Positions 702 to 16,640 of a DNA stretch of 64,000 nucleotides are shown here, in pieces. The stretch lies in assembly GCA_025363755.1 (NCBI GenBank), contig JANYLQ010000012.1, positions 1-64,000 of the forward strand, given 5' to 3'. This DNA is from Hyphomicrobiales bacterium (GTDB lineage Bacteria; Pseudomonadota; Alphaproteobacteria; Rhizobiales; Aestuariivirgaceae). Below the pieces are notes generated by a model that was given only the letters and a program-made list of their open reading frames with translations, was not told the origin of the DNA and did no database searches. Each line of letters starts with the position of its first letter. Position 1 is the first letter of the stretch. The translations under genes were made by a program, and so were the position numbers.

Positions 702-1940
702 TTAAGCCAGCATCAAGGCAGGTTCTTCAATAAAGGCTTTAAAAGCTCGCAACAATTCCGCACCCACCGCGCCATCGACCGCGCGGTGATCACAAGAAAG
801 CGTACATTCCATTAGAGTTTTCAGAACCGGCTGCTTGTTCACGGGTACAAACTGCTCAATGCCCGTCCCCACCGCCAATATTGTAGCTTGCGGCGGATTG
901 ATGATAGCCGTGAATTGTTCGATGCCATACATTCCAAGATTCGAAACAGCGGTTGTCCCACCTGTGTATTCTGGTGGTTGCAATTTGCGGGTGCGGGCAC
1001 GACTTGCCAAATCTTTCATCTCGATGGAAAGTTGCGAGAGCGACTTGTTTTCGGCATTGCGTAGAATGGGAGTAAACAAACCGCCTTCAACCGAAACCGC
1101 CACACCAACATCACTGGACCGGTGTTGCAGAATGCCCTCATCGGTATAAGTCACATTTGCCGCAGGAACGCGTTGCAAGGCAAGCGCTAAAGCCTTGATT
1201 ACATAATCATTAATTGAAAGCTTCCATTTCGGCTTCTTGGTCTCGTCAAGCGGTGCCGTCATATTAATCCGTTCACGGACTAATATTAGCTGTGTGAGAT
1301 CACATTTAGCAGAAAGATAAAAATGCGGAACAGTTTGTTTGGAAAGTGTAAGACGCTGCGCGATCGTACGGCGCATGCCGTCGAGTGGTTTCACATCATA
1401 AGATCCAGCCTGATACATGGCCATGGTGGCTGAGGCATCGGGGGCTGGGGCCGCAACTACTGCTGCAACCGACTTATAACCCTCAACATCCTGAGCGGTA
1501 ATCCGACCACGCGGGCCAGAGCCCATGACTGCGCTCAAATCCAATTTCTTGTGCCGCGCCAAGCGCCGCGCCAAAGGTGTTGCCCGAGTCCCCGACGAAG
1601 AACTTTGAACAATGGTTGCTATTTTTTCAAGCACACCCGATTTTAAAACTTGAGCAGCTTCAACAACGGGGGCCACAGCTTTCGTTTCTAGCACGGCTTC
1701 TCCCGCCGCGTATATCATCGCAACAATTGCACCAATGGGTGTGGCAGCGCCTGATTGCGCTTCAATATTGTTGATGATACCGCCAGCCGGCGCATCAATC
1801 TCGATTGCAGATTTATCGGTTTCCATCTCAAAAAGCACTTGGCCTTTTTTAACAGTGTCACCGTTTTTCACATGCCACTTGGAAATAATACCGGTGGCCA
1901 TATCCATATCGACTTTTGGGAGAATGACTTCGACAGCCAT
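702..1940 (-). CDS. Dihydrolipoamide acyltransferase (E2) of a pyruvate/acetoin-type dehydrogenase complex
   Basis: This is the E2 core of a 2-oxo-acid or acyloin dehydrogenase complex, moving an acyl group from the E1-bound TPP adduct to CoA through lipoate. The 412-residue protein has one N-terminal lipoyl domain with the modified lysine in ETDKS (K43). A peripheral subunit-binding domain follows at about 119-155 (RATPLARRLARHKKLDL). The C-terminal acyltransferase domain carries the catalytic H-x3-D-G at H385-D389-G390. It is the last gene of a leftward E1alpha-E1beta-E2 operon, its ATG abutting the E1beta stop, with a terminator after it. No E3 gene is linked. Sequence alone cannot separate pyruvate from acetoin or another acyloin as substrate. 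A single lipoyl domain and an E1beta without one fit AcoC-like complexes as well as PDH. Confidence 0.9.
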   Translation of the reverse strand: MAVEVILPKVDMDMATGIISKWHVKNGDTVKKGQVLFEMETDKSAIEIDAPAGGIINNIEAQSGAATPIGAIVAMIYAAGEAVLETKAVAPVVEAAQVLKSGVLEKIATIVQSSSSGTRATPLARRLARHKKLDLSAVMGSGPRGRITAQDVEGYKSVAAVVAAPAPDASATMAMYQAGSYDVKPLDGMRRTIAQRLTLSKQTVPHFYLSAKCDLTQLILVRERINMTAPLDETKKPKWKLSINDYVIKALALALQRVPAANVTYTDEGILQHRSSDVGVAVSVEGGLFTPILRNAENKSLSQLSIEMKDLASRARTRKLQPPEYTGGTTAVSNLGMYGIEQFTAIINPPQATILAVGTGIEQFVPVNKQPVLKTLMECTLSCDHRAVDGAVGAELLRAFKAFIEEPALMLA

Positions 1941-2927
1941 TTAAATGCGGCCCTTCACCAAATTGCGCAAGGCTTCAACAATACCGTCGACTTGTGGTAC
2001 AGCGGCCTTTTCCAAAATCGGGCTGTAAGGAATGGGGCTTTCAGCACCCCCCAGTCGCAAGATGGGCGCATCGAGATAATCAAAAGCTTCGCTTTCGGCC
2101 ACCAGCGCGCTGATCTCAGCACCGATGCCAAGGGTTTTGACACCTTCATAAATGCAGGCAAGCCGCGTGGTTTTTTTAACACTGGCAATAATCGTCGCTG
2201 TATCAATCGGGCGGATCGAGCGAAGATCGACCACTTCAACTTCAATGCCTTCTGCCTGCAAAATCTCAGCGGCCTCTAAAGCCTTGTGCACCATGATCGC
2301 AGCAGCAACCACAGTCACATCGCGGCCCTCGCGGGCCACATGAGCCTTGCCGATCGGTGTTAGATAATGACCCTCAGGCACATCGCCTTTAATTTTGTAA
2401 AGTAGCTTATGTTCAAAAATCAAAACCGGATCAGGGTCTTCAATCGCCGCCAGCAACATGCCCTTGGCATCGGCGGGTGTTGAAGGCTCAATCACTTTCA
2501 AGCCGGGCACATGTGCAAACCACGCTTCGAGCGATTGTGAGTGTTGTGCAGCAGCACCCGTGCCCGAACCGCAAGGCATGCGAAACACCACGGGCACGTT
2601 CACTTTACCACCCAGCATATAACGCATTTTAGCAGCCTGATTCACGATCTGCTCCATGGCGAGGCCGGAAAAGTCTGAAAACTGAAATTCCAAAATTGGT
2701 CGCGAGCCTGCAACGGCTGCTCCCACAGCAGCACCCGCGGTGCCTAACTCTGCAATTGGCGTATCCATCACCCTGTCTTCGCCAAATTTATGAACCAGAT
2801 CACCAGTCACACCAAAAGCGCCGCCATAAACGCCAATATCTTCGCCCATGATGAATACACGTTCATCGGCTTCCATGGCAATATCCAATGCTTCGTGCAA
2901 AGCTTGCGCAAAAGACAGTTCACGCAT
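1941..2927 (-). CDS. TPP-dependent dehydrogenase E1 component, beta subunit (PdhB/AcoB-like)
   Basis: This is the beta subunit of the heterotetrameric alpha2beta2 E1 that decarboxylates or cleaves the substrate on thiamine diphosphate. The 328 residues cover the transketolase-like pyrimidine domain (start [18 protein letters not shown], then [14 protein letters not shown]) and the C-terminal regulatory domain (about 200-320). It has no N-terminal lipoyl domain. From general knowledge, the housekeeping rhizobial PdhB usually carries one and is about 460 residues, so this looks like a second, AcoB/BKD-type complex. The stop is followed directly by the E2 start, and its start overlaps the E1alpha stop by one base, so the three are translated as a unit. 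Confidence 0.9.
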
Positions 2928-3952
2928 TATGCAATTTCCCTTGCATAAACATCGCGTGTCACATCCTCGGGCACAGGGTCGGTTCCGCTACGCGCAAAGT
3001 TAAAACCATCTTCAATCTCAGCTTTAACACTAGCCTGCACGGCATCAATATCGGCTTGCTTAAAAATACCCATATCCAAAAGTTCTTTTTCAAAAAGCGG
3101 AATGGGGTCACGCGCCTTCCACTCTTCGATCTCTTCTTTCGTGCGATACTTATTGCGGTCGCTGCGTGAGTGGCCGCGCGTGCGATAAGTTTTGCATTCG
3201 ATCAATGTTGGCCCTTCACCACGGCGCGCGCGTTCAGTGGCCACCACCATGGCTTCGGCGACGTCAGCGATGTTGTTACCGTCCACAATCACGCCCGGCA
3301 TGTTATAGGAAGAGGCGCGGTCAGCCACATTGGGTACAGACATCGAACGATCAGTCGAAACCGACATACCGTAACCATTGTTTTCGCAAACATAGACAAC
3401 GGGTAATTTCCAAACCGCGGCGAGATTCAGCGATTCATGAAACGCGCCTTCATTCGATGCGCCGTCACCAAAAAAACACACAGCCACATCATCGCGCTTT
3501 TGCTGTTTGATGGCCAATGCCGCACCCGTTGCCAATGGCAAACCGCCGCCGACAATTCCGTTAGCACCCAAATTGCCAGTTTCCGGATCAGCGATGTGCA
3601 TCGAGCCGCCGCGGCCCTTGCAATAGCCTTCTTCTTTGCCAAAAAATTCGGCGAACATGTATTTGGCTTCAGCACCTTTGCCGATGCAATGGCCGTGGCC
3701 ACGATGGGTAGAGGTAATGTAGTCGGTTTTACGCAGCCCCATGGTGATGCCAACAGCCGAGGCTTCTTGGCCGATTGATAAATGCATGGTCCCGTGGGTG
3801 AGGCCGCGAATGTAAGAGTCCTCAGCCATCTCCTCGAACATGCGCACCAAATGCATTTTGCGCAAAGCTTCCTTCAACGCAGCGGGAGAAGTGTTGGCGT
3901 AGAATGGACGTTGGTTTTTGCCGAGGTTGGCTTTTTTGAGTGCGGAATTCAT
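2927..3952 (-). CDS. TPP-dependent dehydrogenase E1 component, alpha subunit (PdhA/AcoA-like)
   Basis: This E1 alpha subunit binds thiamine diphosphate. The TPP motif runs from [10 protein letters not shown] (GDG at about 162-164) to ENN (about 190-192). HRGHGH and the GRGGSMH segment are characteristic of the PDH/acetoin-dehydrogenase alpha family. I start it at the ATG at 3952 ([10 protein letters not shown]), 341 residues, with ACAGG about 5 nt upstream. The frame stays open to a GTG at 3994, but that codon sits inside a terminator-like leader hairpin and has no ribosome-binding site. It is the first gene of the operon. Upstream is a strong sigma-70-type promoter (4040-4067). The substrate may be pyruvate, acetoin or a related acyloin. 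Confidence 0.88.
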
Positions 3953-3970
3953 GAGACCTGTTTCGATTTC

Positions 3971-4029
3971 AAAAATAAAAACGAGCGTGGCCACGGTTAG
4001 GGAGAACCGGGGAGGAGAAGGCCACGCTC
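3971..4029 (-). promoter_or_regulatory. Terminator-like leader hairpin (possible attenuator) before the E1/E2 operon
   Basis: On the minus strand GAGCGTGGCC (4029-4020) pairs perfectly with GGCCACGCTC (3992-3983), followed at once by GTTTTTATTTTT. The loop holds a nested CGGTT/AACCG helix. The element lies between the promoter and the E1alpha start, so it has the form of an intrinsic terminator inside the mRNA leader. Confidence 0.6.
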
Positions 4030-4039
4030 TGAAGTTTTA

Positions 4040-4067
4040 ATTATACTTTTGCGGTTTTAAAAGTCAA
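4040..4067 (-). promoter_or_regulatory. Sigma-70-type promoter of the E1/E2 dehydrogenase operon
   Basis: Read on the minus strand, TTGACT (-35, 4067-4062) and TATAAT (-10, 4045-4040) are separated by 16 bp. The predicted transcript starts near 4033, immediately before the leader hairpin. Confidence 0.7.
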
Positions 4068-4293
4068 TATGTAACATAATAAGAGTTGCGATTGATAAAC
4101 GCGAATTCCTTCACCGCACAACTCAACGTTAAAGCAAAATGAATTTAAACCCATAAATAGAAATCAACTCTAGATGGCCTAAATGCTTCGCGCAGGCGAT
4201 TTTCAAGTGCGAGCTACCCCTCTAGCAGCCAGACCAAAAAACGCCTCAAGCGACCCTGAAAATAGATTTAAATGCTACGTGAAGATATTACTT

Positions 4294-5070
4294 CTAGTAT
4301 TGATCCCGGATAGCGGAAAGTTCACCCGCCAACTTCTTAGAATCGCGGTCATTCACCGCTTGTTGCATAGAATTTAAGCGCGGCAACATCAGCGCGCCGA
4401 CAATGGCGAAGAATTCATCATCGCCGATTCCTTTGATAGCACCACCCTCTTCCGCCAATAACAAAGCCAAGCAAGTGGTAGCGCACACCGCAACATTCGG
4501 ATCGCCATCTCCCAAAAGCTTGCCCGTGTTTCGCAATACCCCATGCCGCGCGATCGGCGCCGCTTCCACCAAGGCCAAAAGAGTCTGGCTCAAAAACTCA
4601 AGCTTATCAGCAGGCGCTTTAGCCAAAGCCAATTCACGCCGCGCGGCATCGATACGGTGTTCGAGCACCAGATAAGGCGGCTCAGCCCATCGCGACAGAA
4701 CGTTCTGGCAGCTGCGGAAAAAATAAGCGTTGAAAATCGGGTTTTCGACCAGCTTATTATGGCTGATGGCGGTTTGCACTTCATCCATAAAACCAGTGGT
4801 AAAAGGCGATGGCAATTTGCGCCAATTAGGAAGCAAAAGCCTGATCGAAAGATTACCGCCCTTGGTCATCACATCATCGACTACACGGGCCACTCCGGCA
4901 ACCATACGCGAGAGGAAAGTGGATTGGCGCGGGAACGCAGTGCCCTGCCCATCAGCATTACGCATATCACGGACATAAAACTGCGCGGTGCGCAGACTGT
5001 CGCGAAATCCAGCAGCCATGCACCAAGCATGATCAGACAAACGTTCAGCGGTTTTGAATGCAATGCTCAT
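4294..5070 (-). CDS. Hypothetical protein
   Basis: I do not recognise this protein. From ATG 5070 (MSIAFKTAERLSDHAWCMAAG) it has 258 residues, is mostly soluble and alpha-helical in character, and shows no signal peptide or membrane segment. The C-terminal half is rich in Ala/Leu helices. The frame continues upstream to 5235, but that would run into the divergent gene starting at 5123, so the inner ATG is preferred. It shares a short divergent promoter region with 5123-5740. The 220 bp between its stop and the E1alpha promoter hold no gene I can support. Confidence 0.6.
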   Translation of the reverse strand: MSIAFKTAERLSDHAWCMAAGFRDSLRTAQFYVRDMRNADGQGTAFPRQSTFLSRMVAGVARVVDDVMTKGGNLSIRLLLPNWRKLPSPFTTGFMDEVQTAISHNKLVENPIFNAYFFRSCQNVLSRWAEPPYLVLEHRIDAARRELALAKAPADKLEFLSQTLLALVEAAPIARHGVLRNTGKLLGDGDPNVAVCATTCLALLLAEEGGAIKGIGDDEFFAIVGALMLPRLNSMQQAVNDRDSKKLAGELSAIRDQY

Positions 5071-5122
5071 GCGTCCAATTGAGCCTTGCCACGGCCGCTT
5101 CGTCAAGCGATGATATGGTCGC

Positions 5123-5740
5123 ATGAAAACACCGTTAACAACCGATGTTTCGAAAATCGATGATTTGGCCCACGCGGCCAGACGCTTTCGCACAGTGTTG
5201 CAGATGTTCGAAACCAATCTGGATTTGCTGTTCAAAAACTCGTCGCTCTCAACCGTGGTGGATCATGCTGCACTTGCAACGGCGTTTTCAAATTGGCGTC
5301 AGCGCTTTGATCAAACCAAATATCTTGCTGATACCAATCGCCACGACTTTGTGATTTTCGCTGCTGGGCTGATGTTGAAAGAATTGGTTTCGGCATCCCC
5401 GCTGAAAACCCAACCCCGCAAACCAACTGAAGGCGCTGTGGCGGTTGCTTCAACAGATCAGTTATTAACCCGCTGGCCTGAAGGCTATGCCTATACGAGT
5501 TTTTGTTTATCCGTCGCCGGAGCAATTTTGCGCGAAATGGGCGAGACCGAACCGGAAACCGGCGGCCCATCGGACGATCCAGCATTCTGGGACACGTTCA
5601 AAGAAAACACCATGGAAAGTCCAGCTTCAGCAATTGCCTTCTTTGACTTGGTTTGCGGCCAAGAACCAAACTGGGACGCGCCCGATGTGCCATGGATGAG
5701 AAAAGCTTTGAAGCAAAAGCGCGAGTTGTTGAAGGGTTAA
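5123..5740 (+). CDS. Hypothetical protein
   Basis: This is a 205-residue soluble protein of unknown function, starting at ATG 5123 (MKTPLTTDVSKIDDLAHAAR). It has a helical N-terminal half with an aromatic/charged WRQRFDQTKYLADTNRHDF segment and an acidic C-terminal third (GETEPETGGPSDDPAFWDTF). No transmembrane or catalytic motif is visible. Its stop overlaps the stop of the convergent ABC ATPase gene by 4 bp. It is divergent from the neighbouring hypothetical gene with 52 bp between the starts, so the two may be co-regulated. Confidence 0.6.
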   Translation: MKTPLTTDVSKIDDLAHAARRFRTVLQMFETNLDLLFKNSSLSTVVDHAALATAFSNWRQRFDQTKYLADTNRHDFVIFAAGLMLKELVSASPLKTQPRKPTEGAVAVASTDQLLTRWPEGYAYTSFCLSVAGAILREMGETEPETGGPSDDPAFWDTFKENTMESPASAIAFFDLVCGQEPNWDAPDVPWMRKALKQKRELLKG

Positions 5741-6795
5741 CGCACACCAACCCGCGCACCCGTCTCACCATCAAAGATAAACGCGCGGCCCAAATCAAAC
5801 TGCAACGACAAAGGCGTATCGATCGCCGCCTGGTAATCACGAGCCGCGCGGGCCACAATCAGCTGTTCACCATTTTTAACAGCAACCAAAGTTTGATCAC
5901 CCGTAGGCTCCAGCGAATAAAGCGGCGCAGTCAAATGAGCTTTGGTTTTGGTAACAATCATCACATCCTCTGGCCTGATGCCAAAAACAACTTTTGCATG
6001 ATCTGCATGCTTCAAGCCTGAAACACTGACCCCGGGCCCACCGAACACACCTTTGGAAATTGACCCCTTAATCAAATTCATCGGCGTCGATCCGATAAAT
6101 CCCGCAACAAACATATTAGTTGGATTGTTGTAAATCTCATCAGGCGTTCCAAGTTGTTGGATTTTGCCCTTATTCATAATCGCAATGCGGTCAGCCAAAG
6201 TCATGGCCTCAATCTGATCATGGGTCACATAGACAGTCGTTGTCTCCAGCCGCTTTTGAATGTGTTTGAGTTGCGCGCGCATCGACAGGCGCAACTTGGC
6301 ATCCAAGTTCGACAACGGCTCATCCATCAAAAACACCTGCGGCTGGCGCACAATAGCGCGGGCCAAGGCAGCGCGCTGACGTTGACCGCCTGAAAGCGCT
6401 TTGGGCTTACGCTCCAGCAAATCACCCAGCTCCACCATCTCAGCTGCTTTGCGCACCAAGCCATCCTGTTCAGTTTTGGGAACGCCGCGCATGCGCAAAG
6501 GAAAGCGGATGTTTTCATAAATCGACATGTTTGGATAAAGCGCGTAACTCTGAAACACCATGGCCACGTCACGGTCACGCGCGTCCACATCGGTCATGCG
6601 CTGTCCGGCGATATCAATTTCACCGCCCGTTGGCATTTCGAGCCCCGCGATCATCCGCATCGTCGTGGTTTTGCCGCAGCCCGATGGCCCTAGAAACACC
6701 ATGAATTCTTTGTCATTAATCTCAAGATCAATGGCGTCCACACCCACCACTGCGCCCCAAGCTTTGGACACTTTTTTCAAACTGATTGAAGCCAT
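5737..6795 (-). CDS. ABC transporter ATP-binding protein, UgpC/MalK type
   Basis: This is the ATPase subunit of a carbohydrate-type ABC importer acting on the cytoplasmic side of the inner membrane. Visible are Walker A GPSGCGKT (36-43), Q-loop (VFQSYALYP), signature LSGGQ (134-138), Walker B FLMDEP (155-160) and the switch histidine in THDQ. A C-terminal TOBE/MalK-like regulatory domain follows (about 235-352), giving the 352 residues usual for CUT1-family ATPases. It is separated from the permease and binding-protein genes (9279-12630, same strand) by the two plus-strand enzyme genes. It is the only ATPase nearby, so it probably completes that importer. It diverges from the DXR-II-like gene across a 175-bp regulatory gap. 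Confidence 0.93.
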   Translation of the reverse strand: MASISLKKVSKAWGAVVGVDAIDLEINDKEFMVFLGPSGCGKTTTMRMIAGLEMPTGGEIDIAGQRMTDVDARDRDVAMVFQSYALYPNMSIYENIRFPLRMRGVPKTEQDGLVRKAAEMVELGDLLERKPKALSGGQRQRAALARAIVRQPQVFLMDEPLSNLDAKLRLSMRAQLKHIQKRLETTTVYVTHDQIEAMTLADRIAIMNKGKIQQLGTPDEIYNNPTNMFVAGFIGSTPMNLIKGSISKGVFGGPGVSVSGLKHADHAKVVFGIRPEDVMIVTKTKAHLTAPLYSLEPTGDQTLVAVKNGEQLIVARAARDYQAAIDTPLSLQFDLGRAFIFDGETGARVGVR

Positions 6796-6901
6796 TTAGA
6801 TTTTCGCCCTTCCTCACCAGATTAGCCCAACAACCACTCTTGTAAAGTTGGTGGTTTTAGGTTCAAAGCCACAAGCAATTTCTTGCAAGTTGGGCTTCTG
6901 T

Positions 6902-6915
6902 CAATTATAGTACTA
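6902..6915. promoter_or_regulatory. Candidate operator: CAATTAnnnTACTA motif, copy 1
   Basis: CAATTATAGTACTA lies in the divergent gap between the ABC ATPase and the DXR-II-like gene. It overlaps the 10-bp perfect palindrome ATAGTACTAT (6907-6916). The same CAATTAnnnTACTA pattern occurs at 12871-12884 upstream of dxs. A role as the site for the locus's SorC-type regulator is inference. Confidence 0.4.
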
Positions 6916-6970
6916 TTGTTATATCAGAAGATCAAATGTATCTTTTAACTTTTCCGAACAGGAAGCACAA

Positions 6971-8317
6971 ATGTCGAAGAAATCTTACCTGCCGCCACAT
7001 TCTCAAGCCCCCGCTCACGGCCTTGCCGCTGATTTGGCGCGGCGTTTTGCCGAAACTGGCAAGCCGATTCGCGTAGGCTTGATCGGCTCAGGCGAAATGG
7101 GAACCGACATTGTGACCCAGTGCAACCAGATGACAGGCATTACCGTGGCTGCCATTGCCGAGATTAATTCGGGTGCAGCCAAGAAGGCCTATATGATTGC
7201 AGGACGCGACGAGAGCACATTTTTTGCCAGCAACAAGAAATCAGAATTTGATGCTGCTATCGCCGCTGGAAAATCCGCCACCACCGAAGATGCGCAGCTG
7301 GTCTGCAACAGCGAACATATTGATGTGGTCATCGACGCCACAGGCAAACCCGCCGTAGGTGCCGAGATTGGTTTGACTGCTATGGAACATGGCAAGCATC
7401 TCGTCATGATGAATGTCGAAGCTGATGTCACCATTGGCGCATATTTAAAGCGCGAGGCTGCGCGGCTGGGCGTGGTTTATACTTTGGGCGCAGGCGATGA
7501 ACCATCAAGCTGCATGGAGCTGGTGAATTTTGTAACGGGCATGGGCTATCCCATCGTTGCGGCTGGCAAGGGCAAAAACAATCCGCTGAAAATTGATGCA
7601 ACACCTGATGAATATGCCGAGGAAGCCAAGCTCCGCAATATGAATGTGCGCATGTTGGTTGAATTTGTTGATGGCTCGAAGACCATGGTTGAAATGGCTG
7701 CGATTTCCAACGCCACCGGACTGGTACCTGATAAGGCTGGAATGCACGGCCCTTCGTGCTCGATTACCGAACTTGAACATGTTTTGTGCCCAGTCGCTGA
7801 TGGTGGCATTCTTTCGAAAAAGGGTGTGGTGGATTTCTCCATCGGCAAAGGCGTTGCACCCGGCGTTTTCGTAATTGCTGAAATGTCTCATCCGCGCGTC
7901 CGCGAGCGCATGCATGATTTGAAATTGGGTAAAGGGCCATATTATCGCTTCTTCCGTCCTTATCATTTAACGTCGCTTGAAGTGCCGCTATCTTGTGCGC
8001 GCGCTGTGCTCTACGGAATCCCCGATATGCAGCCGCGCGATGTGCCAACTTCTGAAGTTTGCGCTGTGGCGAAAAAGGATTTGAAAGTGGGTGAGCGTTT
8101 AGACGCGATTGGCGAATATACTTACCGCGCTTGGATCATGACGGTTGCCGAAGCTGTGGCTTCCAAAGGTGTTCCTTGTGGTTTGATCGAAAATGGCAAA
8201 GTCACCAAGCCTATCAAGATGGGTGAATTGCTCACCACAGAAAATATCTCAATTGATACCTCCGCTAAAATTGTTACGCTGCGTAAGAGGCAAGACGATA
8301 TGTTAAAAGCCTCATAG
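6971..8317 (+). CDS. DXP reductoisomerase type II (DXR-II/DRL)-like oxidoreductase with SAF domain
   Basis: This 448-residue NAD(P)-dependent oxidoreductase belongs to the 'predicted homoserine dehydrogenase with C-terminal SAF domain' family (COG4091). That family includes Brucella abortus DRL/DXR-II, which converts 1-deoxy-D-xylulose 5-phosphate to 2-C-methyl-D-erythritol 4-phosphate. The Rossmann motif is GLIGSGEMGTD (about 37-46). IDATGKPAVG, HLVMMNVEADV, VAAGKG and NATGLVP are family blocks, and a SAF-like region occupies about 355-430. The ATG has AGGAAG 5 nt upstream. It forms an operon with the PfkB kinase (17 bp gap) inside an ABC-sugar locus that also encodes DXS, which supports a DXP/MEP-related substrate. 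Family members have diverged, so the exact reaction, and whether it runs in the reductive or oxidative direction, is not settled. Confidence 0.8.
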   Translation: MSKKSYLPPHSQAPAHGLAADLARRFAETGKPIRVGLIGSGEMGTDIVTQCNQMTGITVAAIAEINSGAAKKAYMIAGRDESTFFASNKKSEFDAAIAAGKSATTEDAQLVCNSEHIDVVIDATGKPAVGAEIGLTAMEHGKHLVMMNVEADVTIGAYLKREAARLGVVYTLGAGDEPSSCMELVNFVTGMGYPIVAAGKGKNNPLKIDATPDEYAEEAKLRNMNVRMLVEFVDGSKTMVEMAAISNATGLVPDKAGMHGPSCSITELEHVLCPVADGGILSKKGVVDFSIGKGVAPGVFVIAEMSHPRVRERMHDLKLGKGPYYRFFRPYHLTSLEVPLSCARAVLYGIPDMQPRDVPTSEVCAVAKKDLKVGERLDAIGEYTYRAWIMTVAEAVASKGVPCGLIENGKVTKPIKMGELLTTENISIDTSAKIVTLRKRQDDMLKAS

Positions 8318-8334
8318 TTTTATTGGAGGCCAAT

Positions 8335-9282
8335 TTGCCACGTTACGATTACACATCCATGGGGTTCTACACCTATGATTGCTTGGGCTGGCCATACACT
8401 GAAATACCGCCCGGTGGCGGCACGGTATTTATCGATGATCTAACGCTCGCCGTTTCCGGCGCAGGCGGCACTGCGGCCATTGCAGCGGCGAAAATGGGTT
8501 TGAAAACGCTGGCTGTGGCTGGTGTCGGCGAAGATTTGATGGGTGACTGGGTGTTGCAACGCTTGTCGCATTTCGGGGTTGATACCTGGGGTGTGCAACA
8601 CAAACCAGAATGGCGCACGTCATCATCAATTGTCACAACACGTGCCGACGGTTCGCGCCCCGCTCTTCACATGCTGGGTGCCACCAAAGATTTCTTTGTT
8701 GATGATGCCATGATCCCGCGCGTGATTGATGCGAAAGTATTTCACATCGGTGGTGTGGGTTTGATGAGCGCCATGGATCATGGCCAGAACACCGTTGTGA
8801 TGAAAGCCGCCAAAGCGGGTGGAGCAATCACAACCGTAGACGTTTTTGCAGGCTCGCCTAAAGACCTACCTGCCATTGCCTTAGTTCTTCCGTACACTGA
8901 CTATTTCATGCCATCAATCGAAGAAGCCCAATCATTATGTGGCCGCAGCGATTATGGCGACACAGCCAAGTTCTTTTTGGATATGGGTGTAAAAGCTTGC
9001 GTGCTGACGCTTGGCGGCGATGGTGCATATTATCACGACCGCGACGGCACCTCATTCAAAGTACCGGCCTACGATATCAAAGTGAAATGCACTTGCGGCT
9101 GTGGTGATGCATTCAATGCGGGCTTTGCCGTGGGGTTGGTGAAAGATTTTGATCCCGAAACCCGGGTGCGTTTTGCACAAGCAACATCGGCGCTGAATGC
9201 AACAGGACTTGGATCTCAGGCGGGTGTTGAGAGTTTTGAGCACACGCTGAACTTTATGAAAACAATGAAGGTGAAAGGTTAA
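8335..9282 (+). CDS. PfkB-family carbohydrate kinase
   Basis: This is a sugar or polyol kinase of the ribokinase/PfkB fold, 315 residues. The N-terminal signature SGAGGTAAIAAAKMGLKT is present at about 42-59. The second signature is unusual: CTCGCGDAFNAGF replaces the common DTTGAGD, though the catalytic-base Asp (about D258) is kept. I choose the TTG at 8335 as start because GGAGG (8325-8329) sits 5 nt before it. The upstream TTG at 8323 would place the ribosome-binding site inside the gene. It follows the DXR-II-like gene by 17 bp and probably phosphorylates the imported substrate or an early intermediate. The specific sugar cannot be read from sequence. Its stop overlaps the convergent permease gene by 4 bp. 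Confidence 0.87.
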   Translation: MPRYDYTSMGFYTYDCLGWPYTEIPPGGGTVFIDDLTLAVSGAGGTAAIAAAKMGLKTLAVAGVGEDLMGDWVLQRLSHFGVDTWGVQHKPEWRTSSSIVTTRADGSRPALHMLGATKDFFVDDAMIPRVIDAKVFHIGGVGLMSAMDHGQNTVVMKAAKAGGAITTVDVFAGSPKDLPAIALVLPYTDYFMPSIEEAQSLCGRSDYGDTAKFFLDMGVKACVLTLGGDGAYYHDRDGTSFKVPAYDIKVKCTCGCGDAFNAGFAVGLVKDFDPETRVRFAQATSALNATGLGSQAGVESFEHTLNFMKTMKVKG

Positions 9283-10112
9283 CCCTTCACCGCGCCCATC
9301 GTCAGTCCGCGTGACAGGTGGTTTTGAATCGAGATCACCAACAGCAGTGCCGGGAAAAACGCCAAGAACGAGACCAGAGCGATCGCATTATAGATAATGC
9401 CGTCGCTGCCGCCGCTGAAGTTTGCCAGCGCAACCGACAATGGATAGGCATTCTTCGATGCAATGATCAGCGTGAACAAATATTCGTTCATTGCAAAGAT
9501 TGCAGCAATAACCGACGCGGTGATGATGCCCGGCAGACACATCGGGATGATGATCGACCACATGATGCGCAAGTCGGATGCGCCATCGGTGCGCGCGGCG
9601 TCTTCAATCTCATGGGGAATGTCGACCATATAGGAACGGATGATCCACACGACGATGGAGAGATTTGCTGCCGCATAAATCAACATCAACGCCCAAACGG
9701 TATCAAGAATATGCAAGCGTCCGAACAAAACGAACATGGGGATAGCGACAGCGGCGGGGGCCATCATTTTTGTCGAAAGAATATAAAAACCAATATCTTC
9801 ACGACCTTTGAATTTATAGCGCGCTAAAGCATAGGCAGCGGGCACACCGAGCAACAAGCAGATCACAACACTACCAAAAACCGCCATAACGGAATTGACA
9901 AAATAGGTGCCGATGGGCCACTCGTCCCAAATCTTGGCCCATGTTTCAGTTGTAAGTGTCGGGAAATAAATAGGCGTAGGGGCGATGATTTCATTTCGCG
10001 GACGAAGAGCAATTGAAGCAAAAAATATTATAGGCAACAGACAGACCGCCGCCCACAACGCTAAAATGAATTTAGCAACCCAGGTTCCTGACGTGGTTTT
10101 GTTCTTCATCAT
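9279..10112 (-). CDS. Carbohydrate ABC transporter permease (MalG/LacG type)
   Basis: This is an inner-membrane permease subunit with six predicted hydrophobic segments in 277 residues. The EAA-type cytoplasmic loop is seen around EDAARTDGASDLRIMWSIIIP, which contacts the ATPase. Its start overlaps the stop of the partner permease (ATG at 10112, TGA at 10111-10109), so the two are translationally coupled. It is the last gene of the leftward binding-protein/permease operon. The substrate is unknown. The association with DXR-II-like, PfkB and DXS genes suggests a polyol or deoxysugar. Confidence 0.92.
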   Translation of the reverse strand: MMKNKTTSGTWVAKFILALWAAVCLLPIIFFASIALRPRNEIIAPTPIYFPTLTTETWAKIWDEWPIGTYFVNSVMAVFGSVVICLLLGVPAAYALARYKFKGREDIGFYILSTKMMAPAAVAIPMFVLFGRLHILDTVWALMLIYAAANLSIVVWIIRSYMVDIPHEIEDAARTDGASDLRIMWSIIIPMCLPGIITASVIAAIFAMNEYLFTLIIASKNAYPLSVALANFSGGSDGIIYNAIALVSFLAFFPALLLVISIQNHLSRGLTMGAVKG

Positions 10113-11005
10113 TCGGTTCCAGATTTGAAGAAGCGGCGCACCAGCGTCTGTGAAACAACGATTGTGGCGATCAACAACAGCACGGATGCCGCTGAGGCAT
10201 AGCCCTGCTCAAAGCTTTTGAACGCCGTGCGATAAATAAAATAGCTGAGGGTCTCTGTAGCACCACCCGGCGAACCCTGGGTGATGACATGCACCGGCGT
10301 GAACATTGTTAAAATATCTATGCCGCGCAACACCAACCCGATGGCAATCACCGGGCGGATCATGGGTAGCGAGATGTTAAAGAAAATACTGTTCCACGAT
10401 GCACCATCAAGGCGCGCGGCTTCTTCGACTTCCTTGTCCATGCCTTGCAGTCCGGCCACAAAAATAATGAAGAGAAAGGGCGTCCACTGCCAAACATCGG
10501 TGACCACAAGAACCGAGCGGGCAAAACCAGTTGAACCCATAAAATCAATGTTGCCGAAAGTTGAACCAAGCCGCGTCAACAAATCGCTGATGATGCGGCC
10601 ATCATTAAAGATCAACTTCCACAAAAACGAAACCGCAGATGGCATGAACAACATTGGCAGCAAAAAAATAATGCGCCAGGCTTTCACCCATGGATCGCGG
10701 TAGACCAGTGCGGCCAGTGCCATGGCAATCGTAAATTCAATGACGAGCGTGATCGAGCCTAAAACCAGCGTATTGTAAAGGCTTTCCCAAAATGCATTGT
10801 CGACAATCAGTTCTTTGTAATTTTCAAGACCGACAAATTCCAACTTGAATTTACCTGTCATGGTGCTGCGATAGAGCGCATAAATACCGGGATAAAGCGT
10901 GATGCCCAGCAGATAGATCATCGCCGGGGCCAGCAGAAAATAAGGGAACGCCTTGCGCATGAAAGGGCTGCGGCGGCGAATGATTGTAGATTGAAGAGTG
11001 GTCAT
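10109..11005 (-). CDS. Carbohydrate ABC transporter permease (MalF/UgpA type)
   Basis: This 298-residue inner-membrane permease has an N-terminal membrane segment after a basic start (MTTLQSTIIRRRSPFMRKAF). Further hydrophobic segments follow, and the conserved EAA loop reads EVEEAARLDGASWNSIFFNISLP. It is the UgpA/MalF-type partner of the downstream permease, with which it overlaps by 4 bp. It lies 62 bp after the substrate-binding protein gene. Together with the ATPase at 5737-6795 these form a complete CUT1-like importer. Confidence 0.92.
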   Translation of the reverse strand: MTTLQSTIIRRRSPFMRKAFPYFLLAPAMIYLLGITLYPGIYALYRSTMTGKFKLEFVGLENYKELIVDNAFWESLYNTLVLGSITLVIEFTIAMALAALVYRDPWVKAWRIIFLLPMLFMPSAVSFLWKLIFNDGRIISDLLTRLGSTFGNIDFMGSTGFARSVLVVTDVWQWTPFLFIIFVAGLQGMDKEVEEAARLDGASWNSIFFNISLPMIRPVIAIGLVLRGIDILTMFTPVHVITQGSPGGATETLSYFIYRTAFKSFEQGYASAASVLLLIATIVVSQTLVRRFFKSGTE

Positions 11006-11067
11006 TGATTTAGTCCGTAGACCTCAAAAAAAGACGGCAGAGTTTCCCCTGCCGTCCAATATCAAAT

Positions 11068-12630
11068 TCAGAACGGTGCTTTCTTGCCTTTGCCGATCCA
11101 CATGCCGGGTTCAACGGCTGCAAAGTTCATCGGGTCTTTGCCTTTATAGAAGCCATTCTTGGTCATGATGTCTTTAACTTTGACAGCAGCTTGATCAAGT
11201 GCATCCTTCGGCTTCAATTCGCCAACGACAACTTTGTTAATGAGGAAACCGATTTCCTGATCCATCTGGAAACCTTGTGGCAAGCGTGGTGCGCACCAAG
11301 CATAATCCAAAGCTTCAGACCAAACCTTCGCAGGCTGGGACACTGCACGCAATTTTTCATTTGCGAGCACAGACTTATAGCCAGGGGCCACACCATTGGC
11401 ATTGGCTTCGTTCATCGCCATAATCGAAGCCGAGGTTAAGAAAGCAAGCATCAAGAATGCGGCTTCTGGCTCCGGCGATGTGGCAGTGACGCATGATGTT
11501 GAACCTGCAATATTTGGTGGCGCATAAGTGCCACCAGCGACGCGCGGCTCATAGATCGTCATCACGTCATCACCAATCTTGGATTGATCGGGGCGCGTTG
11601 CTTGTGTGCCAGAATCCTGCCAAGAAATGTTGCAAGCGATCTGACCACCAAGCCAAGCAGCACGGTTGGTTGGCCAATCGGCAGCGGCAACACCTTCAAT
11701 GGCATTCTTCGACAAAGCAACGATGGTTTCGAGACCTTTGATACCTGCATCGCTGTTAATCGTTGGTTCCCACTTGTCGTTAAACATTTGCATGCCGTAT
11801 TGGGCTGCAATGTGTTGCCACGTATAAGTAGCCCAGAAACCACGGCCACACATCATGCCGATGGCGTTCACACCTTTTTCAACTTTGTTGAGTTCAGGTG
11901 CCAAGCGGATCATATCATCGTAAGTTGCAATAGACTTTACACGGTCAACTTCGCCACCCAAAACCTTTTTCATGATAGATGGGCGAACGTGTACTTGCTG
12001 GATATCGCAATCGAACGGAATGCCCAGAATGCCCTTGTCGCTCCAATGCCCGTAGTTCAATTGATAGGTTTCATAGAAATCATCAAATGGCAGTTTCCAT
12101 TTGGCGATATATTCGTCCAGAGGCTTTACAAAGCCTTGCGCTCCAAAATCGCCCAGCCATGGCGAGAAGAATTGGATGGCATCGAATGAGGCAGTGCCGG
12201 ACAAGAATTCGGCGACAACCTTATCATACATTGAGTCGTCAGGAATTGGGACAAGCTCAACTTTAATGCCTGAAAGTTCTGCAAATGGTGCCACACCATC
12301 TTGCGCCGATTCCTTGTCGGCAGCACCGATGGCAAAGCGAACTGTTTTGCCCGCATGTTCTTTACGAACCGCTTCCCAATCAACTGTGCGGATCCAATCT
12401 TTCTTTGAATCCCAAAGTTCGTCATTATCGCCAAGCTTATATTGCTCGCGATATTCCTTCTTAACATATTTGCCAACATTGATGGTTTTCAGAACTTCAG
12501 CAGGGTCTTTCATGGCAGCAAAAGCGCTGTTGATGTTGAACATGTTTACACCACCGACGGCTGCAAAAGCTCCCGTGGCAGCCGTGGATTTCAAAAGAGA
12601 TCGGCGGGACAATTTACTGGTCAAGAGCAT
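11068..12630 (-). CDS. ABC transporter extracellular substrate-binding protein with twin-arginine signal
   Basis: This is a periplasmic solute-binding protein of the sugar-ABC type, 520 residues, longer than the usual 420-440. The N-terminus carries a twin-arginine (Tat) type signal: S-R-R-S-L-L-K, a hydrophobic stretch, then an AFA-type cleavage site near residue 38. Aromatic residues that could line a sugar pocket are abundant (for example FWATYTWQHIAAQYG). The ATG at 12630 has a strong CCTCC-complement SD (12638-12642). It is first in the operon with the two permeases and diverges from dxs. The extra 80-100 residues after the signal (a Lys/Trp-rich segment) are a distinctive feature of this subgroup. 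Confidence 0.9.
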   Translation of the reverse strand: MLLTSKLSRRSLLKSTAATGAFAAVGGVNMFNINSAFAAMKDPAEVLKTINVGKYVKKEYREQYKLGDNDELWDSKKDWIRTVDWEAVRKEHAGKTVRFAIGAADKESAQDGVAPFAELSGIKVELVPIPDDSMYDKVVAEFLSGTASFDAIQFFSPWLGDFGAQGFVKPLDEYIAKWKLPFDDFYETYQLNYGHWSDKGILGIPFDCDIQQVHVRPSIMKKVLGGEVDRVKSIATYDDMIRLAPELNKVEKGVNAIGMMCGRGFWATYTWQHIAAQYGMQMFNDKWEPTINSDAGIKGLETIVALSKNAIEGVAAADWPTNRAAWLGGQIACNISWQDSGTQATRPDQSKIGDDVMTIYEPRVAGGTYAPPNIAGSTSCVTATSPEPEAAFLMLAFLTSASIMAMNEANANGVAPGYKSVLANEKLRAVSQPAKVWSEALDYAWCAPRLPQGFQMDQEIGFLINKVVVGELKPKDALDQAAVKVKDIMTKNGFYKGKDPMNFAAVEPGMWIGKGKKAPF

Positions 12631-12870
12631 TTTATTTCCTCCTCAATATTTTTATGGCCGGGTTTTGTGTTGCGCACGCACTTGGCCTTGAGCACGGCAC
12701 AATTTTTTCGGTTTTACCTCATGCGTGAAGCAGCCGAGAAATCAAAATAAATGAATAGATCGTCGCGAAATCAGGGCGATTCTGAGAAAAAGGTTGTTGC
12801 CGTTAATACCCACTGTAACCTCCCTTATTGGCCGCTTGATTTTATTTGCAGCGCGTTTTTATCGATATTT

Positions 12871-12884
12871 CAATTAGCATACTA
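12871..12884. promoter_or_regulatory. Candidate operator: CAATTAnnnTACTA motif, copy 2
   Basis: CAATTAGCATACTA lies 31 bp before the first in-frame ATG (12915) of the dxs frame and 241 bp upstream of the binding-protein gene. It matches the site at 6902-6915 at 11 of 14 positions. TTAGCATACTAA within it is an inverted repeat (TTAG/CTAA). A second small inverted repeat, CGAAA/TTTCG, follows at 12895-12912. Confidence 0.4.
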
Positions 12885-12992
12885 AATTACAATTCGAAAT
12901 GCAAATGTTTCGTTATGGCGTTTTCAATTTCTCTTGGCGATCAGAAAACAGACGGTGTAAGGCTTGACTACGAGACTGCAAGGAACCGAATT

Positions 12993-14912
12993 TTGAACAC
13001 CCAAAGCCCCACTCCGCTGCTTGATATTGCTGATTTTCCCGTCAATCTGAAGAAACTGGACGTCAGCCAACTGCCACAACTCGCTGCGGAATTGCGTGAA
13101 GACATGATCGGTGCCGTTTCCAAAACGGGCGGGCATTTGGGGGCAGGCCTTGGCGTTGTCGAACTGACGATTGCTTTGCATTATATTTTCAACACACCTG
13201 AAGACCGCGTGATCTGGGATGTTGGGCATCAAAGCTATCCCCATAAATTGCTCACCGGAAGGCGAGGTCGTTTTCTAACGTTGCGTCAGGAAAATGGAAT
13301 TTCAGGATTTACCAAACGCACTGAAAGCGAATTTGATCCCTTTGGTGCTGCACATTCATCGACTTCGATCTCGGCTGGTCTCGGCATGGCTGTGGCTCGC
13401 GATCTGCAGAATAAAACCAACAACGTAATAGCAGTAATTGGCGATGGTGCCATGTCGGCGGGTATGGCGTTTGAAGCGCTGAACAACGCAGGGGCAACCG
13501 ATGCACGGTTGATCGTCATCCTTAACGACAATGATATGTCAATCGCCCCACCCTCTGGTGCGCTCAGTTCCTATCTGGCCCGCTTAGCATCAGGTAAATT
13601 CTATAGTGACTTCCGCGATCTCGGTAAAAAGCTGTCATCGCGTTTGGGCAAACGAGCTGAGCGTGCAATCACCCGCGCTGTCGGACATGCGCGGGGTTTT
13701 GTGACCGGCGGCACAATGTTTGAGGAATTGGGGTTTCAATACATTGGCCCGATAGACGGCCATAATTTTGATGTTCTGATCCCCGTGCTCAACAACGTGC
13801 GCGACCATGGCAACGGACCAGTTCTCATTCATGTCGTAACCAAAAAGGGTAAGGGTTATGCGCCTGCAGAGAAGGCAGCCGACAAATATCATGGCGTGAA
13901 TAAATTTGATGTCGTCACCGGAACCCAAAGCAAGGCCGCATCAAATGCACCTGCATATACAAAAGTTTTTGCCCAAAGCCTGATTCAGGAAGCCCAACAT
14001 GATGACCGTATTGTGGGAATTACAGCGGCCATGCCGACTGGCACGGGGCTTGATCTATTTGGCGAGGTTTTTCCAACACGGGTTTTTGACGTTGGCATTG
14101 CCGAGCAACATGCAGTGACATTTGCTGCAGGAATGGCCACCGAAGGCATGAAACCGTTTGTTGCAATCTATTCCACTTTCCTACAACGCGCCTATGACCA
14201 GATCGTCCATGACGTCGCCATCCAAAAACTTCCCGTGCGTTTTCCAATTGATCGTGCGGGCTATGTAGGTGCCGATGGCCCAACCCATTGCGGCGCATTC
14301 GATATTGGTTTTTTGGCATCGCTGCCCGGTTTTGTTGTGATGGGAGCTTCTGATGAAGCAGAGCTCAAGCATATGGTGCGCACGGCTGCAGCCTATGACG
14401 AAGGGCCGATTTCATTTCGCTTTCCGCGCGGAGACGGTGTGGGCGTTGACTTGCCCGAGCGCGGAGAGATTTTGGAAATTGGCAAGGGCCGCATCGTTAA
14501 AGAGGGAACCAAGATTGCGCTGCTTTCTTTTGGAACGCGTCTGGCTGATTGTATTTTGGCGGCGCAAGATTTGGATGCAGCGGGGCTTTCTACAACTGTA
14601 GCTGATGCGCGATTTGCAAAACCTTTAGATTTAGACTTGCTGCGGCGGTTGGCCGTGGAACACGAAGTATTAGTAACCGTTGAAGAGGGAGCAACAGGCG
14701 GCTTTGATGGCCAAGTTTTGCATGCGCTTGCCAACCTTGGTTTGCTTGATCGTGGCTTGAAAATTCGGTGCTTAACATTGAAAGATGAATTTACAGATCA
14801 GGCCAAACCTGAGACGATGTATGGACGAAGCGGTCTTGACCGTGCAGGCATAGTCGCCACGGTGATGTCTACATTGGCGGCCAACGGACAGAACATTTAT
14901 GCCAAAGCATGA
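12993..14912 (+). CDS. dxs: 1-deoxy-D-xylulose-5-phosphate synthase
   Basis: DXS condenses pyruvate with glyceraldehyde 3-phosphate on thiamine diphosphate, giving DXP and CO2. All expected motifs are present: [32 protein letters not shown] (GDG at 150-152), the catalytic Glu in [10 protein letters not shown] (E371, matching Glu370 of the E. coli enzyme), FLQRAYDQ and the [13 protein letters not shown] substrate loop. I start it at TTG 12993 ([12 protein letters not shown]): AAGGAA lies 7 nt upstream and the 639 residues then match family length. An ATG at 12915 is in frame but would add 26 residues foreign to the family and lacks an SD. It sits beside a sugar-sensing regulator, not beside the xseB/ispA neighbours usual for housekeeping dxs in this group, so it may be a second copy serving the adjacent locus. 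Confidence 0.93.
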
Positions 14913-15900
14913 CGATGGCCATATCGGGTCAATAGCGGTGACACCAGTGGATCGTGGTGCAGGCCGCATTGCGCGCAACCGCATGCGCATTGCATGGATG
15001 TACTATGTTGAAGGCCTAACGCAGAACGAAATAGCCGAAAAACTGGGCATCGGGCGTGTGACCGTTGTGCGCAATATCAATGAAGCCATTAAACAGCGCG
15101 AAGTGAAAATCCGCATCGAAGGCGATATCGCAGAGTGCATAGAGATTGAAGACGGATTGAAAAAGGCCTTCAATCTGCAAGATGCAATCGTTGTTCCAGA
15201 ACCAAATAATTCGGCGAACATCGCCAAATCCATTGGAAATGCGGCAGGCATGTTTGTGTCTGATACATTGAAAGATGGAATGTCAGTCGGCGTGGGCTGG
15301 GGTGCAACACTTTATGAGTCGCTGGCCACCCTTACCACGCGCGAACTGAACAATGTGCAGGTAATTTCACTGCTCGGTGGTATCGTTCAGGCCCGAAAAT
15401 TTAATCCGGCGGAATTTGCTTGGCAATTTGCGCGCGCAGTAGGTGCCGATTGTTATTTGTTGCAAGCCCCCGCTGTGGTCGATTCACCAGCCACCCGTGA
15501 GGCCTTGGTTGAACGCTGCGGTTTGCGCGACGTTTTCAAACGTGCTGAGAAGCTTGATATCGCGATGCTCAGCTGCGGCAACATGGAACTCAAGTCGACT
15601 GCGTTTCGATTTGAAATGTTGCCGGAAGAGGATCGTCTCGCTTTGATCAAAGCTGGCGCAGTGGGCGATTTGCTCTATAATTTTTTTGATATCAACGGAA
15701 AAATTGTTGATCACCCTGTGAACAAACGTATTATGTCTATTCCACTGGAACAATTGCGCGACGTGCCGCTGCGCGTCATCTCGGCAGGCGGTGCAGACAA
15801 AATTGAAGCCATCTACGGCGCAATCAAACTGATCAACTGCAATGTTTTGATCACGAATGAGGAAACAGCGTTGGCCTTGCTTAAGAAAATTGGGGGTTAG
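14899..15900 (+). CDS. SorC-family sugar-binding transcriptional regulator
   Basis: This 333-residue protein has an N-terminal helix-turn-helix (about 39-60, [21 protein letters not shown]). A SorC/DeoR-type sugar-phosphate sensor domain follows (about 75-330), with the family glycine-rich [13 protein letters not shown] and a C-terminal region around [15 protein letters not shown]. Members typically respond to phosphorylated sugars and control an adjacent transport/catabolic operon. It overlaps the 3' end of dxs by 14 bp, so the two are co-transcribed. Likely targets are the divergent dxs/binding-protein region and the DXR-II-like/ATPase region, which share a motif. A bidirectional terminator follows its stop. 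Confidence 0.9.
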
Positions 15901-15904
15901 AAAA

Positions 15905-15942
15905 GCCCGCGCCACTCAAAAAAATGAGTGCGCGGGCATTTT
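15905..15942. terminator. Bidirectional rho-independent terminator
   Basis: GCCCGCGCCACTC and GAGTGCGCGGGC form a long stem (15905-15937) with an A/T loop. It is followed by ATTTTG on the plus strand and by TTTTC on the minus strand. It lies between the convergent SorC-type regulator and bioY genes. Confidence 0.85.
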
Positions 15943-15960
15943 GAACGAAAGAGAAATCAG

Positions 15961-16578: not shown

Positions 16579-16640
16579 AGTTCCATTCCCTGTTGTTATA
16601 ATGCTTGAATAATGCAGCAATTGACCTGTGGCAACCCGCT

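Follow-up and report, generated by a model that had tools for sequence, protein, structure and literature searches.

A DXR-II gene linked to an E1/E2 dehydrogenase complex in a Hyphomicrobiales genome: a putative operon for catabolism of a methyl-branched polyol

Gene content of the locus

A window of 64,000 nucleotides was analyzed from a Hyphomicrobiales bacterium (contig JANYLQ010000012.1 of GCA_025363755.1, positions 1 to 64,000, forward strand), in which an oxidoreductase of the DXR-II (DRL) family is encoded among genes for a sugar importer, a sugar kinase, the 1-deoxy-D-xylulose 5-phosphate (DXP) synthase DXS, a SorC-type regulator, and an E1/E2 dehydrogenase complex. The genome is a 3.2-Mb draft in 64 contigs, with 100% completeness and 0.24% contamination, and Aestuariivirga was the closest named isolate among the scan matches listed.

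The genes named in an initial annotation of this DNA were all recovered at their positions from open reading frames, Pfam, and NCBIfam. The DXR-II gene (6971..8317, forward strand) encodes a COG4091-type oxidoreductase of 448 amino acids and is followed by a PfkB-family sugar kinase (8323..9282, forward; PF00294, E=8e-36). The kinase may start at 8323 or at a second TTG at 8335 behind GGAGG, and with the latter start the gap of 17 bp given in the annotation holds. The CUT1-type ATP-binding cassette (ABC) importer was complete, as claimed, with all of its genes on the reverse strand: a MalK/UgpC-like ATPase with a TOBE/OB domain (5737..6795), a GlcU/MalG-like permease (9279..10112), a UgpA-like permease (10109..11005), and a substrate-binding protein (SBP; 11068..12630) in which PF01547 and PF13416 were over cut-off and a signal of the twin-arginine translocation type (PF10518) scored 20.8 bits, just below its cut-off of 22.7. 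The DXS, with its full set of motifs, lies in an open frame at 12846..14912 on the forward strand (TIGR00204, 799.9 bits, cut-off 465.95). It is overlapped by 14 bp by the SorC/DeoR-type sugar-binding regulator (14899..15900, forward), for which PF04198 scored 212.7 bits (E=7e-63) and the helix-turn-helix-type matches, most of them slightly below cut-off, covered residues 26-71.

The initial gene list did not include two genes at 4297-5235 (reverse) and 5123-5740 (forward), nor three genes at 702-3994 on the reverse strand. The latter encode E1alpha (2927..3994) and E1beta (1941..2927) of a thiamine pyrophosphate-dependent dehydrogenase, as well as E2, a dihydrolipoamide acyltransferase with one lipoyl domain, an E3-binding domain, and a catalytic domain (702..1940; PF00364, PF02817, PF00198). 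These E1/E2 genes are the key to the locus.

Identity of the oxidoreductase

The placement of the oxidoreductase in the family of the Brucella DRL/DXR-II was borne out by its domains, its match to a solved structure, its residues, and its position in a tree. Both PF21135 (DRL_cat; 227.6 bits, E=1.1e-67) and the N-terminal NAD(P)-binding domain PF03447 (31.6 bits) were found over cut-off, and the protein aligned with the Brucella crystal structure 3UPL over 430 residues (E=3e-175). With residues numbered as in the Brucella enzyme (PMC3847144, in excerpt; offset fixed on ten published positions), the window protein keeps all of the substrate-binding and dimer residues Thr229, Lys191, Lys193, Arg320, Tyr322, Glu174, Phe178, and His250 listed there. 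Thr229 and His250 were absent from three distant outgroup copies of the order and family. The listed divergence site Val351 is a Thr in the window protein; in the 75 other rows of the main clade it was Val (49), Thr (15), or Ser (10).

The DXR-II tree comprised 113 rows, with no DLO-labelled sequence included, and was built by a quick method with SH-aLRT support only. 3UPL and the window protein shared a clade of 89 rows (support 97), with the outgroups L167-169 outside, and the window protein grouped with its nearest kin in a five-row clade (support 99). The Brucella enzyme was inside a 44-row clade (support 99), of which 41 rows were E1-linked copies, although its exact position there is unsure given its long branch and a support of 88 for the nearest fork. 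Judged by these characters of its sequence, the oxidoreductase belongs to DXR-II proper.

Fifteen loci of the genus and family (L151-L163, L165, and L166) encode another DXR-II paralog, which shares 53-57% identity with that of the window. An FGGY kinase accompanied it at eight of these loci, often with a different CUT1 importer, and in L161 it was additionally found with an iron-containing alcohol dehydrogenase, SorC, divergent E1alpha and E1beta, aldolases, and a lipoate ligase.

Genes accompanying DXR-II

The surroundings of DXR-II were compared at 80 loci from named contigs, found by scanning with the DXR-II protein alone. As the 80 top-ranked of 573 confirmed relatives, they are skewed to close kin. 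The flanks spanned up to 10 kb; three contigs were shorter than 4.5 kb, and some genes lay beyond contig ends. A wider set of 117 loci was fetched in all.

E1alpha was encoded directly downstream of DXR-II, on the same strand, in 60 of the 80 loci, and E1beta and E2 were also present at 57 loci of this set. Since the loci had been found by the oxidoreductase alone, the association of DXR-II with E1alpha is not a matter of chance. It spanned the Rhizobiales, Rhodospirillaceae, Burkholderiaceae, and Comamonadaceae. SorC-type genes were found at 37 loci (28 of them at 40% identity or more). Within the flanks, a glucitol-type phosphotransferase system (PTS) was present at 15 loci, an importer of the window's CUT1 type at another 15, and PfkB at 23, while the PTS was never found together with either the importer or PfkB (0/80 each). 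This exchange of a PTS for an importer and kinase is as expected if DXR-II acts on a phosphorylated polyol of external origin.

The order of the genes varied among taxa. In all 11 loci of the Burkholderiaceae and Comamonadaceae, SorC, DXR-II, E1alpha, E1beta, and E2 occurred in that order, followed in ten by GutM, IIC, IIB, and IIA; the eleventh is a short contig. The Rhizobium record encodes a kinase, an ABC importer, SorC, DXR-II, E1alpha, E1beta, E2, and E3, and in the Terrarubrum record the ABC importer and kinase are replaced by a PTS (SorC, enzyme I, PTS-Gut, DXR-II, E1alpha, E1beta, E2). The Nitratireductor record, an annotated DXR-II locus with E1, likewise includes PTS-Gut, enzyme I, and SorC. 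For the Bacillota, the distribution rests on three annotated records of a plasmid collection, from Priestia, Ligilactobacillus, and Listeria. A single stretch of Priestia, a relative of Bacillus, encodes E1alpha, E1beta, E2, E3, SorC, a major facilitator superfamily transporter, a second SorC, DXR-II, and an FGGY kinase, and the Listeria locus is composed of SorC, DXR-II, GutM, and PTS-Gut. A lipoamide dehydrogenase was added at the loci of Rhizobium, Shinella, and Priestia.

Co-occurrence was further surveyed in 120 related genomes, of which 44 were hand-picked as bearing DXR-II at a match E-value of 2.5e-63 or better, with weaker matches and one short fragment (G013) excluded. An E1alpha ortholog (E<=1e-110) was identified in 30 of the 44 DXR-II-bearing genomes and in three of the other 76, the latter three being 66-82% complete (Fisher p=2e-14, not corrected for kinship; most of these 33 genomes belong to one genus).

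The E1/E2 complex

The window E1 genes are located about 3 kb from DXR-II on the opposite strand. However, the window E1alpha was placed inside the clade of DXR-II-linked E1alphas (64 rows, support 99/96) and not with pyruvate dehydrogenase (PDH). More narrowly, it belonged to a 13-row subclade (100/100), and the genes of the other members immediately follow DXR-II in Aestuariivirga and its kin. A layout with E1alpha apart from DXR-II recurred in L037 and in genomes G007 and G032, where the two genes are about 13 kb apart on the same contig. On the evidence of this clade, the window E1 genes belong to the same system as the DXR-II-linked E1s despite their displacement.

The genome encodes a PDH of its own on contig C29, and the E1/E2 genes of the window were thus rejected as its PDH: the E1alpha on C29 is 38% identical to that of the window, belongs to a separate clade, and scored 491.3 bits with the PDH model TIGR03182 (cut-off 393.85), compared with 377 bits for the window E1alpha. 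Two other operon E1alphas scored 377.4 and 384.1 bits, and that of the Paracoccus aco operon scored 335. The window E2 reached 412.7 bits with TIGR01349 (PDH cut-off 445), and the window E1beta scored 396.7 against a cut-off of 454 for PRK11892, although it has no counterpart to the first 140 positions of this model.

Residues of the active site were compared among 64 E1alpha and 68 E1beta operon rows and nine reference rows each (the genome's own PDH, human PDH, a canonical aco operon, and others). Four E1alpha rows (L037, L080, L109, and L139), for which the extracted frame was too short, were left out of the tree and the residue table; no DXR-II row was left out. Human numbering was anchored on Phe61, His63, and Tyr89 of the alpha subunit and on Ala36, Tyr37, Met81, and Phe85 of the beta subunit. 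Phe61alpha and Met81/82beta are among the catalytic-site or ligand-contact residues described for human PDH (PMC6168537 and PMC12655727, in excerpt). At Phe61alpha, all 64 operon rows had Thr, which occurred in none of the references, and the window E1alpha reads HGTMH where human PDH has RGFCH. An additional His two residues ahead of this Thr was present in 63 of the 64 operon rows and in no reference. At Met81beta, all 68 operon rows had Gln, again absent from the references. At a further position the operon clade had Asn, which one reference shares; the other eight have Phe, Met, or Ile there. With these exchanges, the operon E1 pocket should be more polar than those of the pyruvate and acetoin dehydrogenases compared. 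The pair of positions is, on these alignments, not a perfect marker for PDH: the His-Gly-Thr stretch also occurred in the E1alphas of Priestia and Clostridioides difficile, where the position of Met81beta is Gln and Met, respectively.

The C. difficile record (L146 8025-13945 and L171 8104-9299) encodes SorC, an E1alpha with an identity of 50%, E1beta, E2, E3, a PTS, a class II aldolase, and a lipoate ligase, followed by ispD-ispF.

Entry into the MEP pathway

A search of the 64-contig draft identified one DXS and one DXR-II. IspF was recognized as a domain within a 393-codon frame. Two further matches to the DXS N-terminal domain passed the cut-off weakly, one being the PDH E1alpha and the other probably a transketolase, given its size. 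DXR-I was found neither in the window genome, by a search that was positive in 10 of 14 control genomes, nor in any of the 37 genomes of the genus. Since there is no other dxs and no DXR-I, the DXS and DXR-II of the window are, on gene content, the entry of this organism to the 2-C-methyl-D-erythritol 4-phosphate (MEP) pathway. The initial annotation had named this outcome, in which the pair would be simply the housekeeping entry, as an objection to a special role. The pair is indeed that entry; "simply", however, is contradicted by the conservation of E1/E2, the kinase, the importer or PTS, and SorC around DXR-II.

In a test of 36 genomes hand-picked from the 80 loci, DXS passed the cut-off in 35, with one copy each, and only weak matches were found in the remaining draft (G154). 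DXR-I was also present in 16 of the 36, all of which have an E1-linked DXR-II, and DXR-II is thus not required for isoprenoids in every carrier. The DXR-II copies without any of the partner genes tested (L062 and L066 of Nitratireductor, L068 of Aquamicrobium, and L104 of Aminobacter) were all found in genomes free of DXR-I, and the Aminobacter genome of L104 also holds an E1-linked copy (L114).

A different layout was observed in the four-contig genus member G027 (L164 5923-10222), in which DXR-II, an EamA transporter, and dxs are side by side. Neither DXR-I nor an E1alpha ortholog at E<=1e-110 was identified in this genome, and the layout looks purely biosynthetic.

Position of dxs and a putative operator

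The dxs frame is open from 12846, and a candidate TTG start at 12993 lies behind AAGGA; the true start is probably near this position. Between the SBP gene and dxs, the element ACGAAACATTTGCATT (12898..12913, reverse strand) was the sole match in the window with up to three mismatches, and it was exact. Its core, AAACATTTG, precedes the SBP gene at each of the 11 related loci examined, eight of which hold the full ACGAAACATTTGCATT. The divergent neighbor across the AAACATTTG region was sorC in nine of the 11 loci; L037 shares with the window the placement of dxs between this site and sorC, and no sorC was seen in L043. The dxs gene thus seems to be an insertion into the transcription unit of SorC. 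Apart from the window, dxs was found at the DXR-II locus in only two of the 80 loci, L037 and L039, and the sugar genes are therefore probably the more ancient component. From the conserved position of ACGAAACATTTGCATT, we infer that it is a putative operator bound by SorC. The AAACATTTG core occurred upstream of DXR-II in only one of 17 related loci, which does not support a role of this site in controlling the DXR-II unit as well.

A second element, CAATTANNNTACTA, was spotted by eye upstream of DXR-II (6902..6915, forward) and occurs again ahead of dxs (12871..12884, forward). With one mismatch allowed, the mean expected by chance was 0.28 and at least two copies arose in three of 100 shuffles; a repeat of two exact copies is thus only slightly above chance.

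Among the remaining genes, the 205-amino-acid protein at 5123..5740 (forward) has relatives at 31 of the 117 fetched loci, 26 of these among the 80. The relatives occur in Alpha- and Betaproteobacteria, many at 25-35% identity only, and E161, N162, G179, P182, W184, and P187 are invariant. No Pfam or NCBIfam family and no convincing PDB match was found for this protein, which may be an unrecognized component of the pathway. The frame at 4297..5235 (reverse), whose start is uncertain, matched no Pfam family and has relatives at 11 of the 117 loci (41-95% identity); it adjoins the 205-amino-acid gene in the window, L037, L061, and L099. A HAD-family phosphatase recurred at 28-66% identity in 17 fetched loci other than the query (L174 16858-17541, L142 22882-23547, and others), next to the 205-amino-acid gene in L142 and L174, although HAD enzymes are common and weak matches may be unrelated. 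A BioY-family transporter gene (15961-16620) is located right after sorC on the opposite strand.

A proposed pathway and its alternatives

On balance, and with modest confidence, the locus is read as an operon for the breakdown of a five-carbon polyol with a methyl branch, most likely 2-C-methyl-D-erythritol (ME) or a close relative. The importer, or the PTS elsewhere, would take up ME, which would be phosphorylated to MEP. DXR-II would then oxidize MEP to DXP, the DXR reaction being reversible, and the E1/E2 complex would cleave DXP to acetyl-CoA and glyceraldehyde 3-phosphate with formation of NADH. SorC would sense a phosphorylated intermediate. As this genome lacks DXR-I, the same DXR-II must also make MEP for isoprenoids. 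Acetoin dehydrogenase cleaves acetoin by established chemistry, and DXP, as a methyl acyloin (CH3-CO-CHOH-), may by analogy be open to the same type of cut. In addition, Escherichia coli aceE (PDH E1) mutants raised DXP about 20-fold in cells without DXS and DXR (PMC3424233, in excerpt), which suggests that a PDH-type E1 can handle DXP, although the authors concede that the cell possibly turned the aceE product into DXP. A retro-aldol outlet for DXP, yielding hydroxyacetone and glycolaldehyde phosphate, was rejected, as aldolase or fsa genes were found at few of the 80 loci.

The initial annotation had likewise proposed the import and phosphorylation of a polyol feeding DXR-II, and the comparative context supports this part, while the E1/E2 outlet for DXP had not been foreseen. 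Its alternative, the making of extra MEP on demand, is a poorer fit, as it would leave the CoA-acylating dehydrogenase complex without a role.

A broader proposal goes beyond the window and is more tentative, an even chance being more than we would give it: DXR-II may be primarily catabolic across phyla, in a methylerythritol-degrading pathway that reverses the opening steps of the MEP pathway and ends in a new thiamine-dependent activity, an acetyl-transferring DXP dehydrogenase (DXP + CoA + NAD -> acetyl-CoA + glyceraldehyde 3-phosphate), and its isoprenoid use in Brucella, in the solo copies of Nitratireductor, and in this genus may be a later recruitment that permitted the loss of DXR-I.

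Several observations weigh against the catabolic reading. An adjacent E1alpha was missing in 20 of the 80 loci, and 14 of the 44 DXR-II-bearing relatives had no ortholog at the threshold used. No such ortholog was found at this threshold in the close relative L039 (genome G016), which has DXR-II, PfkB, and dxs together. E1/E2 genes were absent at the DXR-II loci of Listeria and Ligilactobacillus, though SorC and PTS-Gut were present, and a plasmid copy in Phyllobacterium is accompanied by a sugar ABC importer and no E1. A distant Deinococcus relative of DXR-II lies amid surface-polysaccharide genes. Conversely, no DXR-II was found within the approximately 36 kb read around the SorC-linked E1/E2 set of C. 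difficile, which has the same HGT stretch. The profile scores are not uniform either: the Priestia operon E1alpha reached 396.7 bits with TIGR03182, barely over the cut-off, the window E1beta scored 404 bits with the PDH E1beta subfamily NF006667 (cut-off 321), and some operon E2s are annotated by NCBI as subunits of acetoin or pyruvate dehydrogenase. The SBP and PfkB of the window matched no characterized subfamily in NCBIfam or among solved structures and so point to no substrate, nor did comparison of the kinases with NCBIfam assign one. Finally, a dxs within a catabolic unit is odd under any catabolic reading.

The main rival retains the catabolic design with another substrate, such as the stereoisomer 2-C-methyl-threitol, another methyl-branched sugar phosphate, or a 1-deoxy sugar phosphate, and it is given a minor though appreciable chance. 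Kinase class and importer differ between loci, and the second DXR-II paralog with its FGGY kinase and different CUT1 importer hints at more than one substrate. However, the window DXR-II keeps the binding residues of the MEP-making enzyme and was the only candidate MEP synthase found in the genome, so it should still accept DXP and MEP. It is unlikely that the locus serves salvage, in which exogenous methylerythritol or deoxyxylulose would be phosphorylated to supplement isoprenoid synthesis and E1/E2 would be incidental. The gene set of L039, with its sole DXR-II, fits such salvage into isoprenoids better, and the Listeria locus without E1/E2 is in line with it, but E1alpha was the most frequent partner counted, and a lipoamide dehydrogenase has joined the locus in Rhizobium, Shinella, and Priestia.

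That DXS and DXR-II are a plain housekeeping entry located by accident among sugar genes is rather less plausible still. The single DXS and DXR-II, the presence of IspF, the absence of DXR-I throughout the genus, and the layout of G027 would all agree with it. In its simple form it was rejected, as the sugar genes and E1/E2 are kept around DXR-II far beyond the genus, including in genomes where DXR-I exists, and dxs is rarely at the locus. Least probable of all is that E1/E2 runs in reverse as an additional DXP-forming enzyme from pyruvate and glyceraldehyde 3-phosphate. The in vivo effect of the E. coli E1 mutants (PMC3424233, in excerpt) is a precedent, but a normal DXS was found in all but one of the 36 genomes searched, and the importer and kinase would have no purpose.

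Relation to known systems

By sequence, active-site residues, and tree position, the window DXR-II is the same enzyme as that of Brucella; the latter, however, is described as an isoprenoid enzyme (PMC3847144, in excerpt), whereas here it is encoded in a catabolic-looking operon. The general layout of importer, phosphorylation, oxidoreductase, and regulator is shared with polyol catabolic operons, in which a SorC/DeoR-type regulator is combined with a glucitol PTS or with an ABC importer plus kinase.

The acetoin dehydrogenase complex (AcoABC) has the same E1alpha/E1beta/E2 build, the proposed cleavage of DXP would be a reaction of the same kind, and two of the operon E2s carry an acetoin dehydrogenase E2 annotation. 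The window E1alpha shares an identity of 44.9% with that of the canonical aco operon on a Paracoccus plasmid, but the pocket residues differ. Typical partners of aco genes are the NAD-kinase-like acoX, the sigma-54 regulator acoR, and a butanediol dehydrogenase. These were present in the Paracoccus reference operon, and none was found among the Pfam-scanned genes of the window (702-16620) or in the annotated DXR-II loci with E1. PDH provides the closest named profiles and solved structures for the window E1/E2, but the window E1alpha falls under a cut-off that the genome's own PDH exceeds by about 97 bits.

A methylthioadenosine-isoprenoid shunt is named for Rhodospirillum (PMC10663253, in excerpt). 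The shunt is another link between sugar-phosphate metabolism and DXP. It starts from methylthioadenosine, and none of its families was found at this locus. None of the open-licence literature matches listed described the catabolism of methylerythritol, a dehydrogenase that cleaves DXP, or an operon of this kind around DXR-II.

Significance

Why DXR-II occurs beside DXR-I, and why its distribution is patchy, has been an open question (PMC3847144, in excerpt), and there the redundancy is put down to gene dosage and fosmidomycin tolerance and the patchiness to gene loss. If the catabolic reading is true, a catabolic origin would answer both and would predict where DXR-II occurs. It would also explain the active DXR-II reported from Chloroflexus and Finegoldia, which do not have the remainder of the MEP pathway (PMC3847144, in excerpt). 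Methylerythritol would gain a bacterial fate. As the methyltetrols 2-methylerythritol and 2-methylthreitol serve as tracers of isoprene-derived forest aerosol (PMC5559486, in excerpt), their uptake and degradation by soil and plant-associated bacteria would bear on carbon flow. The cleavage of DXP by a dehydrogenase would be new to the 2-oxoacid dehydrogenase family and may be of interest to isoprenoid engineers, and a seemingly redundant isoprenoid enzyme in many bacteria would be explained by polyol catabolism.

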